Source: Flavobacteriaceae bacterium (GTDB taxonomy: Bacteria; Bacteroidota; Bacteroidia; Flavobacteriales; Weeksellaceae). Taken from it: a DNA stretch of 64,000 bases. Below, one piece after another: positions 9,586 to 15,630 of the stretch; within the stretch, counting starts at the first letter, position 1, and each line of letters begins with the position of its first letter. The stretch covers positions 62,001-126,000 of the forward strand of contig JAAYKY010000001.1 in NCBI GenBank assembly GCA_012522185.1, given 5' to 3'. Made by a program: the position numbers and the translations under genes. The notes under the pieces are model-generated. The model did no database searches and was not told the origin of the DNA. It saw only the letters and a program-made list of their open reading frames with translations.

Positions 9586-12500
9586 ATGAAAAACAAATTT
9601 TTACTCTTTTTAAGTTTAATGTTACTGACTTTGACGAAAATGTCAGCGCAGGATACATTTTCTCAAATTACTTCGCTAGCGGAGCTCACGACGGGCGAAT
9701 ATCTCATTGTAGGTGATGGGAATAATGATGGAATGATGCTTAATCAAGCTAATAGTTCAAGCGGTCATAATACCTATATTTTGTTTAGTCCAATCTCGAA
9801 TCCAGGAACTTCCATTTCGACTGGCTATACACAAGATAATGTATTCACGATTAATGTTACAGCAAACCATCTTACTATCTTTAATGATGAGGTAGGATAC
9901 GTTACTTATAGAGGGAGTGCAAATCATGCGAGTTTTTACAATGATACCCCTACTGATTTGGAAAATTGGACCTATTCGGTTGAGGACGGATTATGGATTC
10001 TTACAAATGTTGAAAAATCTGACAGAATTTTACAATGGAATCAAAATAATAATCAAGGTCGTTTCGCCGCCTACACCTCAAACCAAGTAAAATTAAAATT
10101 ATATAAAAAAGACTCATCTTCACCATCAGACTATTCAATTACAGTTACCCAAGCGGAGGGAGGAAATATTTCACCTTCAGGAACGGTGGAAGTGGAAGAA
10201 GGAGGGACTGTTGAATTCACTGCTACTGCAGACGCTTGTTATACATTCAGCCATTGGATTGTGGACGGTGAAAATGCCGGAAACACCAATCCTTATGTTT
10301 TCACAAATGTGACTGCTGACCACACAATTTCAGCTGTTTTTGAAGCAGTTGCACTTGAGACACCGACTGCAGAAGCTCAGGAGTTCTGTGAAGGCGCTAC
10401 TGTTGCTGATTTGGTTGCTGAAGGAACCGAAATCAAATGGTATGATGCGGAAGATGCGACTATGCCATTGTCAGAAGATACGGTTTTGGTTGCTGGAACT
10501 TATTATGCTACACAAACAATCGACGGATGTGAAAGTGAAAAGCTTGCAGTTGAAGTGACTTTGACAACAGCTCCGATTATCATTACACAACCAACCGATC
10601 AGACACTAAGCATTGGTGAAACTGCAACATTCTCTGTGGAAGCAGAAGATGCAGCGGAATTCCAGTGGTCACTAAGTGCAGACGATGGGATTACTTGGAC
10701 AGAAATTGATGGAGAAACAGCATCTACTTATACAACAGAACCTGTAACAGAAGAAATGAACGGTAATCTGTACAGAGTAACTGTAATCAATGACTGTGGA
10801 GAACTGATTTCGGATTCTGCTACTTTAATAATTCAGGAAGAATCTTGTGAAGGTTTGGAGGATTTCGAAACAACTGATATTGCGGACGCCTATTTAGACG
10901 GAGAGTTTACCAACAATGAGATTACCTGGACTTATGGTCATTCCAGAAATGAAGGAGATTTTGCCATTAATGGCAAAGGTTTGATGCTAAGAAGAGCTTC
11001 CGATTCCTATTTAGAAGCGACTTTTGAAGCGGGAGTTGGAACCTTCTCTTTTGAATACAGAAAAGCATTTACCGGAGGCAATGAAAGACAGTTGGAAATC
11101 ATTGTAAATGGTGAACAAGTTGCTACAACTCCTGTTTTTGGAGCAGGTAACGGTGAGGATCCTACGGTTCATACGTTTACACATACTCTAAACATCGAAG
11201 GGCCAGTTACCCTCCGAATTAAAAATCTTGGAGAAACTGATGTCAACAGACAAGCTGTAATCGATAATATTTCTTGGACTTGTCCGGAAGAAACTTGTGA
11301 AACACCATTGCCAACTGCTGAAGCTCAGATTTTCTGTGAAGAAGCAACTGTTGCGGATTTAGTGGCGGAAGGTGAAAATATCCAATGGTACGAAACCCAA
11401 ACTTCAACTGAGCCACTTGCTCCGGAAGTTGCATTGGTGACCGGAACCTATTATGTTACTCAAACCATTGATTGTGAGAGCGATCGATTGGCAGTAGAGG
11501 TTCTAATTAGCGAAGGACCGGTATTTACACTTCAACCTACGGATCAGACGGTCAATGAAGGGGAAACAGCAACTTTTACAGTTGAAGTAGAAGGAGCTTT
11601 GGAATACCAATGGTCAGTGAGCAATGACCATGGCGCAACTTGGGCCATTATAGACGGAGCAATTGAAGCTACTTATACCACCGAACCGGCAACTCCGGAA
11701 ATGGATGGAAATCAATACAGAGTTGCTGCAACCAACGATTGTGGCGAAACGATTTCTGAAATGGCAGTTTTGACCTTAGTAGGTGAGCCATGTTTCGTAG
11801 AAGATTTTGAAACAACAGAACTTCCGGGCGCTTACGGTGATGGAAGTTTTACAAACAACGGAATCACCTGGACCTATGCGCACTCCAGAAATGAAGGAGA
11901 CTTCCCGATTGACGGAAAAGGTTTGATGTTGAGAAGAGCTTTGGATTCTTATCTGGAAGCAACGATTCCTGCCGGTGCAGGCGTATTCTCATTCGAATAC
12001 AGAAAAGCATTTACCGGAGGCAATGAAAGACAATTGGAACTGAGCGTGAATGGTGTTCAGGTTGCCACAACGCCTGTGTTTGGAGATGTGAGCGGTGAGG
12101 ATCCTACTATTTATACGTTCACTTATGTTTTGAATACAACAGAAGAGGTGGTAATCCGAATTAAAAATGTAGGTGAAACGGATGCCAACAGACAAACTGT
12201 AATTGACAACATTAACTGGACTTGTCTGGAAGAGCCATGTGATGTACCAGCACCGATTGCAATTGGAAACTTCGAATTCGTTGCGGGCGATACATTGGCA
12301 GATTTGGAAGATTCATTGGAATATACCGGAACATTGACTTGGTATGCAGATGAGGAATTGACCATTGTTTTACCTAACACGACTTTATTGGAAGACGGAG
12401 CAGTCTATTTTGTAACCCAAACAATTGGTGAATGTGAAAGTGAAGCGCTAATGGTTGAAACCCAGGAACTAGGAGTTGATTCTTTCGCTTTTGATTCGTT

Positions 12501-12720
12501 TAGTTATTATCCAAACCCTGTAAAAGATTATTTGTATTTGAGAAACAATTCAAAAATTGACAATCTTGAAATTTACAATTTGGCAGGAGCGAAACTTATG
12601 TCTCAAACCATAAATGCTGTAAAAGCTGATCTGAATCTGAAAGGATTAGATGCCGGAATTTATATTTTGAAAATTAACTCTGGTAAAGAAGTGAAAACAG
12701 TAAAAATCATTAAGAAATAA
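9586..12720 (+). CDS. Large T9SS-exported surface protein with duplicated Ig-like/carbohydrate-binding-like modules
   Basis: A 1044-residue secreted protein. After a signal peptide (residues 1-22), residues about 25-180 form a domain ending RFAAYTSNQVKLKLYKKD. Residues 185-255 look like a bacterial repeat (GGNISPSGTVEVEEGGTVEFTA in part). A block of three modules then occurs twice, with a period of 314 residues: TAEAQ...FCE module, Ig-like domain (TQPTDQTLSIGETATF), and a jelly-roll-like domain (FETT...ITWTY...GKGLMLRRA). A third TAEAQ-like module precedes the type A T9SS sorting domain YYPNPVKDYLYL...KIIKK. It should be exported and attached to the cell surface. Ligand or adhesin role is unknown. 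Confidence 0.88.
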   Translation: MKNKFLLFLSLMLLTLTKMSAQDTFSQITSLAELTTGEYLIVGDGNNDGMMLNQANSSSGHNTYILFSPISNPGTSISTGYTQDNVFTINVTANHLTIFNDEVGYVTYRGSANHASFYNDTPTDLENWTYSVEDGLWILTNVEKSDRILQWNQNNNQGRFAAYTSNQVKLKLYKKDSSSPSDYSITVTQAEGGNISPSGTVEVEEGGTVEFTATADACYTFSHWIVDGENAGNTNPYVFTNVTADHTISAVFEAVALETPTAEAQEFCEGATVADLVAEGTEIKWYDAEDATMPLSEDTVLVAGTYYATQTIDGCESEKLAVEVTLTTAPIIITQPTDQTLSIGETATFSVEAEDAAEFQWSLSADDGITWTEIDGETASTYTTEPVTEEMNGNLYRVTVINDCGELISDSATLIIQEESCEGLEDFETTDIADAYLDGEFTNNEITWTYGHSRNEGDFAINGKGLMLRRASDSYLEATFEAGVGTFSFEYRKAFTGGNERQLEIIVNGEQVATTPVFGAGNGEDPTVHTFTHTLNIEGPVTLRIKNLGETDVNRQAVIDNISWTCPEETCETPLPTAEAQIFCEEATVADLVAEGENIQWYETQTSTEPLAPEVALVTGTYYVTQTIDCESDRLAVEVLISEGPVFTLQPTDQTVNEGETATFTVEVEGALEYQWSVSNDHGATWAIIDGAIEATYTTEPATPEMDGNQYRVAATNDCGETISEMAVLTLVGEPCFVEDFETTELPGAYGDGSFTNNGITWTYAHSRNEGDFPIDGKGLMLRRALDSYLEATIPAGAGVFSFEYRKAFTGGNERQLELSVNGVQVATTPVFGDVSGEDPTIYTFTYVLNTTEEVVIRIKNVGETDANRQTVIDNINWTCLEEPCDVPAPIAIGNFEFVAGDTLADLEDSLEYTGTLTWYADEELTIVLPNTTLLEDGAVYFVTQTIGECESEALMVETQELGVDSFAFDSFSYYPNPVKDYLYLRNNSKIDNLEIYNLAGAKLMSQTINAVKADLNLKGLDAGIYILKINSGKEVKTVKIIKK
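10846..12232 (+). repeat. Internal tandem duplication in the T9SS protein, period 942 bases
   Basis: Two copies of the jelly-roll-like module (near 10846-11285 and 11788-12228) are offset by 942 bases. A run of 38 identical bases occurs at 11053-11090 and again at 11995-12032. The preceding Ig-like modules are duplicated in the same register. Confidence 0.85.
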
Positions 12721-13149: not shown

Positions 13150-13530
13150 ATGACCAGAGAAAAATTTCAATCGGAATTTGTTATAAACGCTTCCCCTTCA
13201 TTGCTTTACAACTATATTTCGAATCCTTCCGGATTATCGGAATGGTTTGCAGATAATGTAAATTCAAGGGGTGAAAAATATACATTCATCTGGGATGGGG
13301 ATGAGCAATCCGCTTTTTTGATAAAAAGCAAACAAGATACTTATGTACGTTTCCAATGGGAAGACGATGAGGATACCAAATATTTCTTTGAATTGAACAT
13401 CGTGGAAGACGATTTGACGGGCGATGTATCGCTTATGATTACCGATTTTGCCGATTCAGACGAAATCGAAGAAGCAAAATTACTTTGGGAAAGCCAGATT
13501 GAAGATCTTAAAAAAATTCTAGGCTCTTAA
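13150..13530 (+). CDS. START-like domain protein (SRPBCC superfamily)
   Basis: A 126-residue single-domain protein with the helix-grip pattern: FVINASPSLLYNYISNPSGLSEWFADNV, then RGEKYTFIWDGDEQSAFLI, alternating strands, and a long C-terminal helix (EAKLLWESQIEDLKKIL). It matches the short START-like proteins common in Bacteroidota and resembles AHSA1/START folds that bind hydrophobic ligands or co-chaperone partners. No catalytic motif is visible and ligand is unknown. It lies 18 bases upstream of the class IV aminotransferase-like gene, suggesting one transcript. Confidence 0.8.
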   Translation: MTREKFQSEFVINASPSLLYNYISNPSGLSEWFADNVNSRGEKYTFIWDGDEQSAFLIKSKQDTYVRFQWEDDEDTKYFFELNIVEDDLTGDVSLMITDFADSDEIEEAKLLWESQIEDLKKILGS

Positions 13531-13548
13531 TTCATAAAATTCATAACC

Positions 13549-14385
13549 TTGAAATTCATTTTTAACGGCAATCTTTTCAATGATGCCGATGCACTTTTTG
13601 GTAAAATTAACCGAGCATTTCTCTACGGTGATTTTATTTCTGAATTTGTAAAAATATCAGACGGGAAATTGCTTCTCTGGGAAGAACATTATTTCAACCT
13701 GATGGCTTCCATGCGAATTTTCCGAATGAGAATTCCAATCGAATTTACGCAGGAATTTCTCGAAGAAGAAATTTTGAAAGTCTGTAAGGAAAATGGAACT
13801 TCAAACGCTAAAATTAAAATCAGCGTATTCCGAAATCCGGGAAATGAAATGCTTACGAAATCCACGGTTTCCTATTTGATTGATGTGGAAAAAACTTTTT
13901 CTCAAGCAGAATATTCCTGGACAAATGATTCGTCCGAAATTGAAATTTTTAAAGATTATACAATTAATCCAAGCTTTTTTTCACAAGTAAATTCGCATAA
14001 ACCGGAAGAAATCATCGCGCAAGCTTTCATGCAGGAAAACGAATACGATGATTTGGTTTTGCTAAATCCCGACAAACGAATTGCACGAACTATCTTGGGA
14101 GTTCCATTTCTGATTCAGGGAAATCATATCAAAACACCAAAAATCGAAGAAGGAGGAATTCGAAATGTAACCCGAAATCATTTGACGAAACTAATTTCCA
14201 AATCAGAAAATTTTAGTTTTGAAGAAGCCGAAATATTTCCTTTCGAATTACAAAAAACCGACGAACTCTTTATTTGTCTGGAAAGCGAAGGAATTCTTTC
14301 CGTTCACCAAAACCGGAAAAAAACGTATTCGACCGAAAAAACAAAGGAGATTTTTGAGTTGTTGAATGATTCAATGAGCGATTAA
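13549..14385 (+). CDS. Degenerate class IV aminotransferase-like protein
   Basis: A 278-residue protein of the IlvE/PabC fold, seen in NRAFLYGDFISEFVKISDGKLLLWEEHYFNLMASMRI (one stretch of the N-terminal domain), KISVFRNPG and LQKTDELFICLESEGI. The PLP-binding region is atypical: SQVNSHKPEEIIAQAF replaces the usual KTxN block, so the Schiff-base lysine seems absent. RIARTILGVPF replaces the EAxxxNIF loop and GIRNVTR the CLxGxMR motif. It may be a pseudoenzyme or carry altered activity. The start is TTG; no ATG exists nearby. Its stop overlaps that of convergent YqgE. Confidence 0.7.
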   Translation: MKFIFNGNLFNDADALFGKINRAFLYGDFISEFVKISDGKLLLWEEHYFNLMASMRIFRMRIPIEFTQEFLEEEILKVCKENGTSNAKIKISVFRNPGNEMLTKSTVSYLIDVEKTFSQAEYSWTNDSSEIEIFKDYTINPSFFSQVNSHKPEEIIAQAFMQENEYDDLVLLNPDKRIARTILGVPFLIQGNHIKTPKIEEGGIRNVTRNHLTKLISKSENFSFEEAEIFPFELQKTDELFICLESEGILSVHQNRKKTYSTEKTKEIFELLNDSMSD

Positions 14386-14933
14386 TTCATCGAAGGATCG
14401 GCAGGCGTATTGAGCCAGATGAGGTGTTCGCCACCTAACTTTTTCATTTGAAGTTTCCAGAGATTATTGTCCCAATCTTGGAAAATATCCAAATCATCTT
14501 CTACCACAATCCAGGCGTTGTCCTCAACTTCTGTTTGAAGCTGATTTTCACCCCAGCCACTGTAGCCTAGATAAAAACGAATTTCTTCTTCGCCGATTAA
14601 ATTATTGTTGATGGCATTTTTTACATCATCATATTCACCCGACCAATACAAACCATTGCTGATGGGTTCACTGTTGCGGATCAAGTCCGGGCGTTTATGG
14701 ATATAATAAAGATTTTGGGTTTCTACCGGACCGCCTTCATAAACTGTAAAATCGGACTCCAATTCAGAAACATAAAGATTTACAGAATGATTCAGCGGTT
14801 TATTTAGAATGAAGCCCACTGAACCCAATTCATTGTGATCGGTGATTAAAACCACAGACCGATTAAAAGTATAGTCGTACAATGCCGGTTGGGCAATGAG
14901 AATATTTCCTTTTGTAATCGTTTTTATTTGCAC
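14382..14933 (-). CDS. YqgE/AlgH family protein
   Basis: A 183-residue member of the YqgE/AlgH (DUF179) family. Typical features are the N-terminal GNILIAQPALYDYTFNRSVVLI, the GSVGFILNKPLN strand, VYEGGPVE, and LGYSGWGENQLQTEVEDN. The family folds as a compact alpha/beta protein of uncertain role; AlgH was first linked to alginate regulation. Gene order with PdxH on the opposite strand is common in flavobacteria. It overlaps the convergent aminotransferase-like gene by 4 bases and appears monocistronic. Confidence 0.93.
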   Translation of the reverse strand: MQIKTITKGNILIAQPALYDYTFNRSVVLITDHNELGSVGFILNKPLNHSVNLYVSELESDFTVYEGGPVETQNLYYIHKRPDLIRNSEPISNGLYWSGEYDDVKNAINNNLIGEEEIRFYLGYSGWGENQLQTEVEDNAWIVVEDDLDIFQDWDNNLWKLQMKKLGGEHLIWLNTPADPSMN

Positions 14934-14985: not shown

Positions 14986-15630
14986 ATGAAACAAGACTTA
15001 AGCGATAAAAGAAAGGATTATTCACAAAATTTTATAGACTTTACAAAACTATCCGATAACCCGATGGATTTATTTCATGACTGGTACAATCGGGCGACAC
15101 AGAGTGATTTGATTGCCGAACCTTACGCCATGAGCTTATCAACACTCGGCTCAGATGGTTTTCCTCGAACGCGTATTGTTTTGCTTCGCGAAGTAAATCC
15201 CGAAGGATTTATTTTTTATACCAATTATGAAAGTGAGAAAGGAAAATCAATCAGTGATAATCAAAAAGTCTGTATTTCCTTTTTTTGGGACAAACTGGAA
15301 CAACAAATCATCATAAAAGGCACTGCCGAAAAAGTTTCTTCTGAAAAATCAGACGATTATTTCCATAAACGGCCTGTAGAAAGTCAGATTGGCGCCATTG
15401 TTTCGGCACAAAGTTCAGAAATCGGATTTGATTTTGATTTGGATGAAAAAGTTAGACAACTTCAGAAAGAATTTGAAGGAAAAGAAGTTCCACGACCGGA
15501 AAACTGGGGCGGATATTTGGTGAAACCTATGGAAATCGAATTCTGGCAGGGAAGACCAAGTCGATTACATGATCGCGTTCGATACAAACTGGAAAACGGA
15601 AAATGGGTTCAATCCCGTTTGTCGCCTTGA
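14986..15630 (+). CDS. pdxH: Pyridoxamine 5-prime-phosphate oxidase
   Basis: A 214-residue FMN enzyme that oxidises pyridoxamine or pyridoxine phosphate to pyridoxal phosphate. Recognisable segments are SDNPMDLFHDWYNRA, TRIVLLREV (FMN phosphate contact), GKSISDNQKVCISFFW, and the C-terminal FWQGRPSRLHDRVRYK, which carries the substrate-binding arginines and histidine. It would supply PLP for aminotransferases such as SufS and DegT enzymes elsewhere in the window. It is transcribed divergently from yqgE, with a terminator of the opposing HU gene after it. Confidence 0.96.
   Translation: MKQDLSDKRKDYSQNFIDFTKLSDNPMDLFHDWYNRATQSDLIAEPYAMSLSTLGSDGFPRTRIVLLREVNPEGFIFYTNYESEKGKSISDNQKVCISFFWDKLEQQIIIKGTAEKVSSEKSDDYFHKRPVESQIGAIVSAQSSEIGFDFDLDEKVRQLQKEFEGKEVPRPENWGGYLVKPMEIEFWQGRPSRLHDRVRYKLENGKWVQSRLSP

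Follow-up and report, generated by a model that had tools for sequence, protein, structure and literature searches.

Gene organization at the AT4 locus

The window is the stretch of 64,000 nucleotides analysed here. An open, unbroken reading frame was located on the plus strand at 13549..14385. It starts with TTG and encodes 278 amino acids. The product scored 90 bits against the PF01063 profile (cut-off 28.5), placing it in the class IV aminotransferase fold family, and it is referred to here as AT4, a member of this family without the Schiff-base lysine. Among named relatives Moheibacter lacus was closest (76%), followed by M. sediminis (68%). Completeness of the window genome was 99.6%. Under a nearest-start rule the start codon was TTG or GTG across the window's subclade (13549 in the window, and L005, L006, L007 and L008). 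Such a start may mean that AT4 is expressed at a low level.

A START_2 gene (PF19569, 143 bits) lies directly upstream on the same strand at 13150..13530, with a gap of 18 bases. Its product was far more conserved than AT4, and the C-terminal LGS was invariant in 30 rows. One NMR structure of a START_2 relative is available (2lio) and is named uncharacterized. Downstream, a YqgE/AlgH-like (DUF179) gene on the minus strand (14382..14933), identified by profile match and synteny, is convergent with AT4. A PdxH-like pyridoxine 5'-phosphate oxidase gene follows on the plus strand at 14986..15630, identified by profile match and a frequent neighbour of AT4 in Weeksellaceae, and HU-, Fmt- and RecQ-like genes come after it. 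At 9586-12720 the window contains a frame of 1044 amino acids which, judged by eye, starts like a signal sequence, contains repeated modules and ends in a sorting-like C-terminus.

Predicted fold and profile matches

AlphaFold2 produced a model of AT4 with a mean pLDDT of 93.4 and a pTM of 0.89. Compared to BCAT, DAAT and PabC structures the model gave Z scores of 28-30, with values of about 30 for 5mqz, 5e25 and 7p3t. In NCBIfam the window protein matched TIGR03461 (aminodeoxychorismate lyase) best, as did the orthologs L018 and L010. Its cut-off is 176.85 bits, and both the window protein (78.5 bits) and the lysine-bearing ortholog L018 (153.6 bits) scored below it. The best model was another ADC lyase model for L014 and a BCAT subfamily model for L066.

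Catalytic residues of AT4

The catalytic columns were read from an alignment of 157 distinct orthologs, comprising 67 from Weeksellaceae and 90 from elsewhere in Flavobacteriales. According to passages of PMC8401098, the cofactor of the Haliscomenobacter D-amino acid transaminase (fold type IV) is held by K143, E176, R52, I202, T203 and T239. The K, E, R and last T of this set were equated by motif with Asn148, Arg180, Asn50 and Cys243 of the window protein. In the ortholog alignments Asn148 (codon 13990..13992, plus strand) occupies the column of the Schiff-base lysine (xLKTxN), Arg180 (14086..14088, plus strand) that of the glutamate contacting the pyridine nitrogen (E of EAxxxNIF) and Cys243 (14275..14277, plus strand) that of the phosphate-binding threonine (FxTN). 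Asn50 (13696..13698, plus strand) was matched to the arginine that binds the PLP phosphate (HYFRL / HxxRL) by its motif and not by coordinates.

These changes are shared by the family. The phosphate arginine, the glutamate and the threonine were each kept in 0/67 of the distinct Weeksellaceae sequences, and 64/67 had no lysine in the Schiff-base column. Outside Weeksellaceae the lysine was kept in 88/90 orthologs, the glutamate in 87/90 and the arginine in 90/90. Chance was ruled out as the cause of the motif changes by this family-wide pattern (lysine in 88/90 rows outside compared to 3/67 inside). The three Weeksellaceae rows with a lysine in the column, L020 and L143 (genus g10) and L199 (genus g5), have it even though their glutamate and arginine are lost, and it is probably the product of an Arg-to-Lys exchange. 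The replacements themselves were conserved in Weeksellaceae. Arginine stood in place of the glutamate in 66/67 rows, serine at position 206 in 64/67 and phenylalanine in place of the phosphate arginine in 43/67; the window's subclade has asparagine, not phenylalanine, in the last of these columns. R88, G99, Y100 and P102, which would form part of the substrate loop, were conserved in lysine-bearing orthologs and gone from most of the rows without lysine.

An earlier reading of this DNA, made from its letters alone (the sequence-only reading), had reported an intact gene for a class IV aminotransferase fold apparently without its Schiff-base lysine. Both points hold, the frame being open from its TTG start and the lysine missing from the window protein and from most of its family. 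The lysine motif, described there as KTxN changed to VNSHK, is indeed altered. The residue implied for the lysine column, Val, was off by one because Weeksellaceae rows have in common the deletion of a single residue behind the lysine loop, and the aligned residue is Asn148. The change of EAxxxNIF to RTILGVPF agreed with the alignment, where Arg180 replaces the glutamate. In the GCLxGIMR loop, given as CLxGxMR to GIRNVTR, the second glycine is lost (Asn206) but the final arginine is still there as Arg209. The general claim that several catalytic motifs changed together while the fold was kept was upheld by the four altered columns and the confident model; the fold of AT4 stands while its active site does not. 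Another lysine in NSHKPEE had been named as one that could take over the Schiff-base position. In the window Lys151 aligns with the asparagine of KTxN, at a position that is not conserved in the family (the commonest residue is Cys, 0.37), and so it is an unlikely substitute. Neither Lys151 nor any other loop lysine was kept as a candidate substitute, as no conserved loop lysine was seen in the alignment.

Retention and selection in Weeksellaceae

The AT4 gene was found in 315/320 Weeksellaceae genomes, among them 305/306 of those at least 90% complete, and it is kept in 31/33 genera. In an AT4 tree built with the trait columns removed, Weeksellaceae formed one side of a branch with an SH-aLRT of 98 (36 compared to 40 rows). 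On this tree the loss of catalytic residues in Weeksellaceae is old and has a single origin. The tree of START_2 and YqgE did not unite Weeksellaceae (two changes), and a single clade was not rejected (p-AU 0.09).

Omega ranged from 0.025 to 0.110 in Weeksellaceae AT4 pairs (YN00; 11 of 18 pairs gave a value) and from 0.12 to 0.16 in the window's genus (NG86). AT4 is under purifying selection. The open frame and the omega values in the genus distinguish AT4 from a pseudogene. As an intact and conserved gene that has lost its catalytic residues, AT4 fits the description of a pseudoenzyme.

The compact pabB-pabC module

Besides AT4, the window genome contains two further class IV genes. One is a frame of 368 amino acids on contig C54, which we take to be IlvE-like. 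The other, on contig C31, encodes a protein of 203 amino acids which passes PF01063, has a lysine in YPFKFTDR and scored 25 bits against TIGR03461, far below the cut-off. A frame of 318 amino acids overlapping this gene was identified as PabB by NCBIfam NF005486 (475 bits compared to a cut-off of 275). The two overlapping genes are located at L034:4075-5614. From its position beside pabB we infer that the 203-amino-acid protein is a compact PabC. A search for another pabC in the genome, which the sequence-only reading had proposed as a check, thus led to a PF01063 protein on a different contig, its identity as PabC suggested by that position.

The window genome's copy was used as the query in searches for compact PabC. 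It was matched in 34/36 Weeksellaceae genomes (the exceptions being G021 and G035) and in 0/23 genomes of other families. Among the matches listed for this set of relatives, most Weeksellaceae genomes had three or four genes of class IV, including one of about 200 amino acids, and most others had two or three. At the compact PabC loci the lysine was present in 30/30 stretches and pabB was nearby in 28/30. The module is near-universal in Weeksellaceae and patchy in Flavobacteriaceae. In a tree of the module, whose deep branches were weak, Flavobacteriaceae were divided by a starred branch, and more than one acquisition in Flavobacteriaceae is likely given this placement.

Weak local matches were not counted as compact PabC. 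These were G418, G617 and G654 in an even sample of 395 Flavobacteriales genomes, and G654, G671 and G780 in a set of 397 Flavobacteriaceae genomes. G794 was counted, with a match spanning residues 60-192 only.

Loss of the lysine and presence of compact PabC

Two Croceivirga genomes (L066 and L088) have lost the AT4 lysine independently. It had been predicted beforehand that they would then own another pabC. Both own a class IV gene of about 210 amino acids, and such a gene was found in 0/19 lysine-bearing Flavobacteriaceae of the same comparison. In the even sample of 395 genomes full-length matches to compact PabC outside Weeksellaceae were limited to G570 and G606. The AT4 of G570 is without lysine (K to N, E to A and T to L). 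No AT4 ortholog was found in G606, where there was only a weak match, in a frame of 418 amino acids.

Compact PabC was present in 28/397 Flavobacteriaceae genomes. AT4 was present in 23 of the 28, in every case without the lysine (23/23), and there was no AT4 match in the other five. In these 23 the lysine column contained S, N, E, D, L, G, P, H, Y, F or a gap. The arginine was kept in 12, the glutamate in eight and the threonine in four; in G728 and G840 none of the three is lost. Some of the losses in Flavobacteriaceae look young, as the other PLP residues are partly kept in the sequences. Controls were 28 genomes taken by handle number from the 369 Flavobacteriaceae genomes without a counted compact PabC. 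AT4 was found in 27/28 of them, with the lysine kept in 24/27 and lost in three (G850, G910 and G920). No class IV gene of about 200 amino acids was found in these three genomes, which are candidate p-aminobenzoate auxotrophs. Together with G021 they are the four rows that lack both the lysine and compact PabC.

The association was also assessed on trees of START_2 and YqgE. These had 93 rows, as L257 and L283 were dropped from the original 95 for lack of data. There were 43 rows with compact PabC and no lysine, none with compact PabC and lysine, four with neither and 46 with lysine and no compact PabC. One row was coded by hand: L038/G014 has a lysine in the column and neither glutamate nor arginine, and it was entered as lysine-less; otherwise one row would combine compact PabC with lysine. 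On the careful tree compact PabC required 12 changes and loss of the lysine 11. Starred branches of this tree gave nine independent pairs, of which seven were concordant, none discordant and two tied (p 0.016 in a sign test, ranging up to 0.031), with a bootstrap that had not fully settled. A quicker tree gave six starred pairs (4-0-2, p 0.125), and, with all branches and a pairing of our own, 10-0-3 or 9-0-4. Loss of the lysine tracks compact PabC and is recurrent in Flavobacteriaceae. That the loss is family-wide, that it recurs and that it goes with a second PF01063 protein all lie beyond what the window alone could show to the sequence-only reading.

The retained patch and linkage to START_2

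Sites conserved in 112 lysine-bearing rows were checked in 28 lysine-less Flavobacteriaceae rows and in the 67 Weeksellaceae rows. A patch at residues 45-63 (E45, Y48, R56, R59, I62 and P63; 13681..13737, plus strand) was retained in nearly all orthologs without lysine. In Flavobacteriaceae E45 was kept in 26/28 rows, Y48 in 27/28, R56, R59 and I62 in 28/28 and P63 in 27/28. In Weeksellaceae R56, I62 and P63 were kept in 67/67 and R59 in 66/67, so that R56 is invariant in all 95 lysine-less rows. In one set of loci, collected by means of the pattern [AWL]E[EDA]xYF[NFR]LM[AS], residues 44-53 are biased by that pattern; R56, R59, I62 and P63 are outside it. Further sites kept were N164, N173, K176, G202 of the phosphate loop, F232, E239, G248 and R256.

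START_2 adjoined AT4 in 30/31 AT4-bearing Weeksellaceae genomes of the relatives set (the exception being G008). It was present at 23/23 lysine-less AT4 loci of Flavobacteriaceae with compact PabC and at 25/27 loci of the controls. In most other families sampled START_2 was not linked to AT4, and the R-x-x-R patch was absent from the most distant rows sampled, where START_2 was unlinked or not found. The patch was present in two f7 genomes whose START_2 is unlinked, and also in G046, for which a START_2 gene was not found. The connection between patch and START_2 is suggestive only, because of these occurrences. A model of START_2 and AT4 joined by a short linker as a read-through product had a pTM of 0.65 and no confident interface. 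Direct docking of the two proteins was not supported by this model.

Interpretation

AT4 is probably a displaced PabC that has turned pseudoenzyme, and has done so repeatedly, as far as sequences can tell. Its ancestor would be the PLP-dependent class IV enzyme of Flavobacteriales, most likely PabC in folate synthesis, and the lysine-bearing orthologs would be PabC still. The compact pabB-pabC module may then have taken over the lyase step, after which AT4 would have ceased to act as an enzyme. The body of the protein may have been retained for a second, non-catalytic function which the enzyme already had and which needed the fold together with the patch of E45, Y48, R56, R59, I62 and P63. This function would perhaps be exercised together with the neighbouring START_2 protein. 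The AT4 of the window would be a pseudoenzyme without PLP or transamination, serving other proteins as a scaffold or as a partner in binding. Taken as a whole, a displaced PabC whose body is kept as a pseudoenzyme for a non-catalytic role is considered likely. A pseudoenzyme had already been raised as a possibility by the sequence-only reading, and the four PLP columns lost together, the confident fold and the purifying selection argue well for it. The second role is suggested by retention of the gene and conservation of the sites.

A broader version is put forward tentatively. The PabC of the order could be a protein with two jobs, as a folate enzyme and in a function of its body unrelated to PLP. 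Arrival of the compact module would discard the chemistry and usually keep the body, perhaps ten times independently. The result would be a natural separation-of-function series exposing what the R-x-x-R patch does in Flavobacteriales, possibly shared with START_2.

The first alternative is slow decay, in which AT4 has been functionless since its displacement by compact PabC and is drifting towards loss, with the intact frames no more than a time lag. Signs of this were seen in places. In G005, a congener (L306; G005:C58:62200-68600), AT4 is cleanly deleted, leaving 69 bases between the START_2 and YqgE matches, and the remaining gene order is kept. With the 5/28 Flavobacteriaceae that have compact PabC and no AT4, this deletion indicates that AT4 is dispensable in some lineages. 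The rate of AT4 relative to START_2 and YqgE had a median ratio of 3.98 in lysine-less Flavobacteriaceae compared to 1.77 in lysine-bearing ones, a two-fold difference taken from non-independent pairs. The median in Weeksellaceae was 1.82, although faster evolution of the neighbours may contribute to this value, and for the window protein compared to M. lacus and M. sediminis the ratio was about 4. Omega was 0.73 in the Flavobacteriaceae pair G820/G981 and 0.26 in G750/G930; NG86 left dS undefined for 7/10 Flavobacteriaceae pairs. Decay of AT4 in some lineages is likely. As an account of the whole, however, it is unlikely. The gene is present in nearly every good Weeksellaceae genome and nearly every genus, all Weeksellaceae pairs giving a value had an omega of 0.025-0.16, Arg180 is common to all but one of the Weeksellaceae rows and R56 to every lysine-less row. 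No internal stops were found in the 23 lysine-less AT4 frames of Flavobacteriaceae.

In the second alternative the emptied PLP pocket binds another ligand, which would make AT4 a sensor or an enzyme of a new kind. The conserved replacements in Weeksellaceae (arginine for the glutamate, Ser206 and phenylalanine for the phosphate arginine) speak for such a pocket. They are missing from the Flavobacteriaceae cases, however, and the window's own subclade departs from the phenylalanine. The substrate-loop residues are also gone from most lysine-less rows, and this alternative is thought quite improbable.

That AT4 is still a PLP enzyme, with another lysine as substitute or with PMP or PLP used without a Schiff base, is very improbable, for while a lysine stands in the column of three Weeksellaceae rows, the loss is confined to the lysine in G728 and G840, G822 has two lysines just past the column and a Variovorax protein of fold type IV was deposited with an asparagine-to-lysine mutant (see below), the phosphate arginine, pyridine glutamate and threonine are lost in all 67 Weeksellaceae rows and no loop lysine, Lys151 included, is conserved.

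If AT4 is a displaced PabC, Weeksellaceae proteins labelled as class IV aminotransferases on the strength of this gene would lack that activity, and the compact pabB-pabC genes would be the p-aminobenzoate genes of this family. A rival enzyme is a likely cause of the loss, and genome sequences are enough to reveal it. With a loss that recurs and a protein that is mostly kept, it becomes possible to test a metabolic enzyme for a second function. The openly licensed literature searched gave no account of a PLP set lost across a whole family, of the recurrence of such a loss or of its tie to compact PabC, and neither did the passages of PMC8401098, PMC9309667, PMC1971073 and PMC6593275 that were consulted.

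Comparison with known fold type IV proteins

A fold type IV member without the lysine is not new, as Variovorax paradoxus seems to have one. It is a fold type IV aminotransferase-like protein (PDB 7z79) likened to AT4 from the titles of its entries, and the deposited mutant N174K (9j32) would imply that it has a natural asparagine at the lysine position. It is not known to represent a family or to be linked with displacement by another enzyme. AT4 shares its fold with the branched-chain and D-amino acid aminotransferases of fold type IV (5mqz, 5e25, 7p3t and 7p7x of Haliscomenobacter), with Z scores of about 28-30. In the passages of PMC8401098, K, E, R, I and T residues are given as the PLP ligands of the Haliscomenobacter enzyme, whereas AT4 is changed at the K, E and R columns and at one T column. 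PabC (E. coli 1i2k/1et0 and Legionella 3lul; fold type IV) also has the same fold, with a Z score of 28.2 and an rmsd of 2.4 over 260 residues to 1i2k, but its lysine, arginine, glutamate and threonine columns are all changed in AT4. The compact PabC-like protein (about 200 amino acids) belongs to PF01063 as AT4 does and is encoded in the same genome. Unlike AT4 it is short, overlaps pabB and keeps its lysine.
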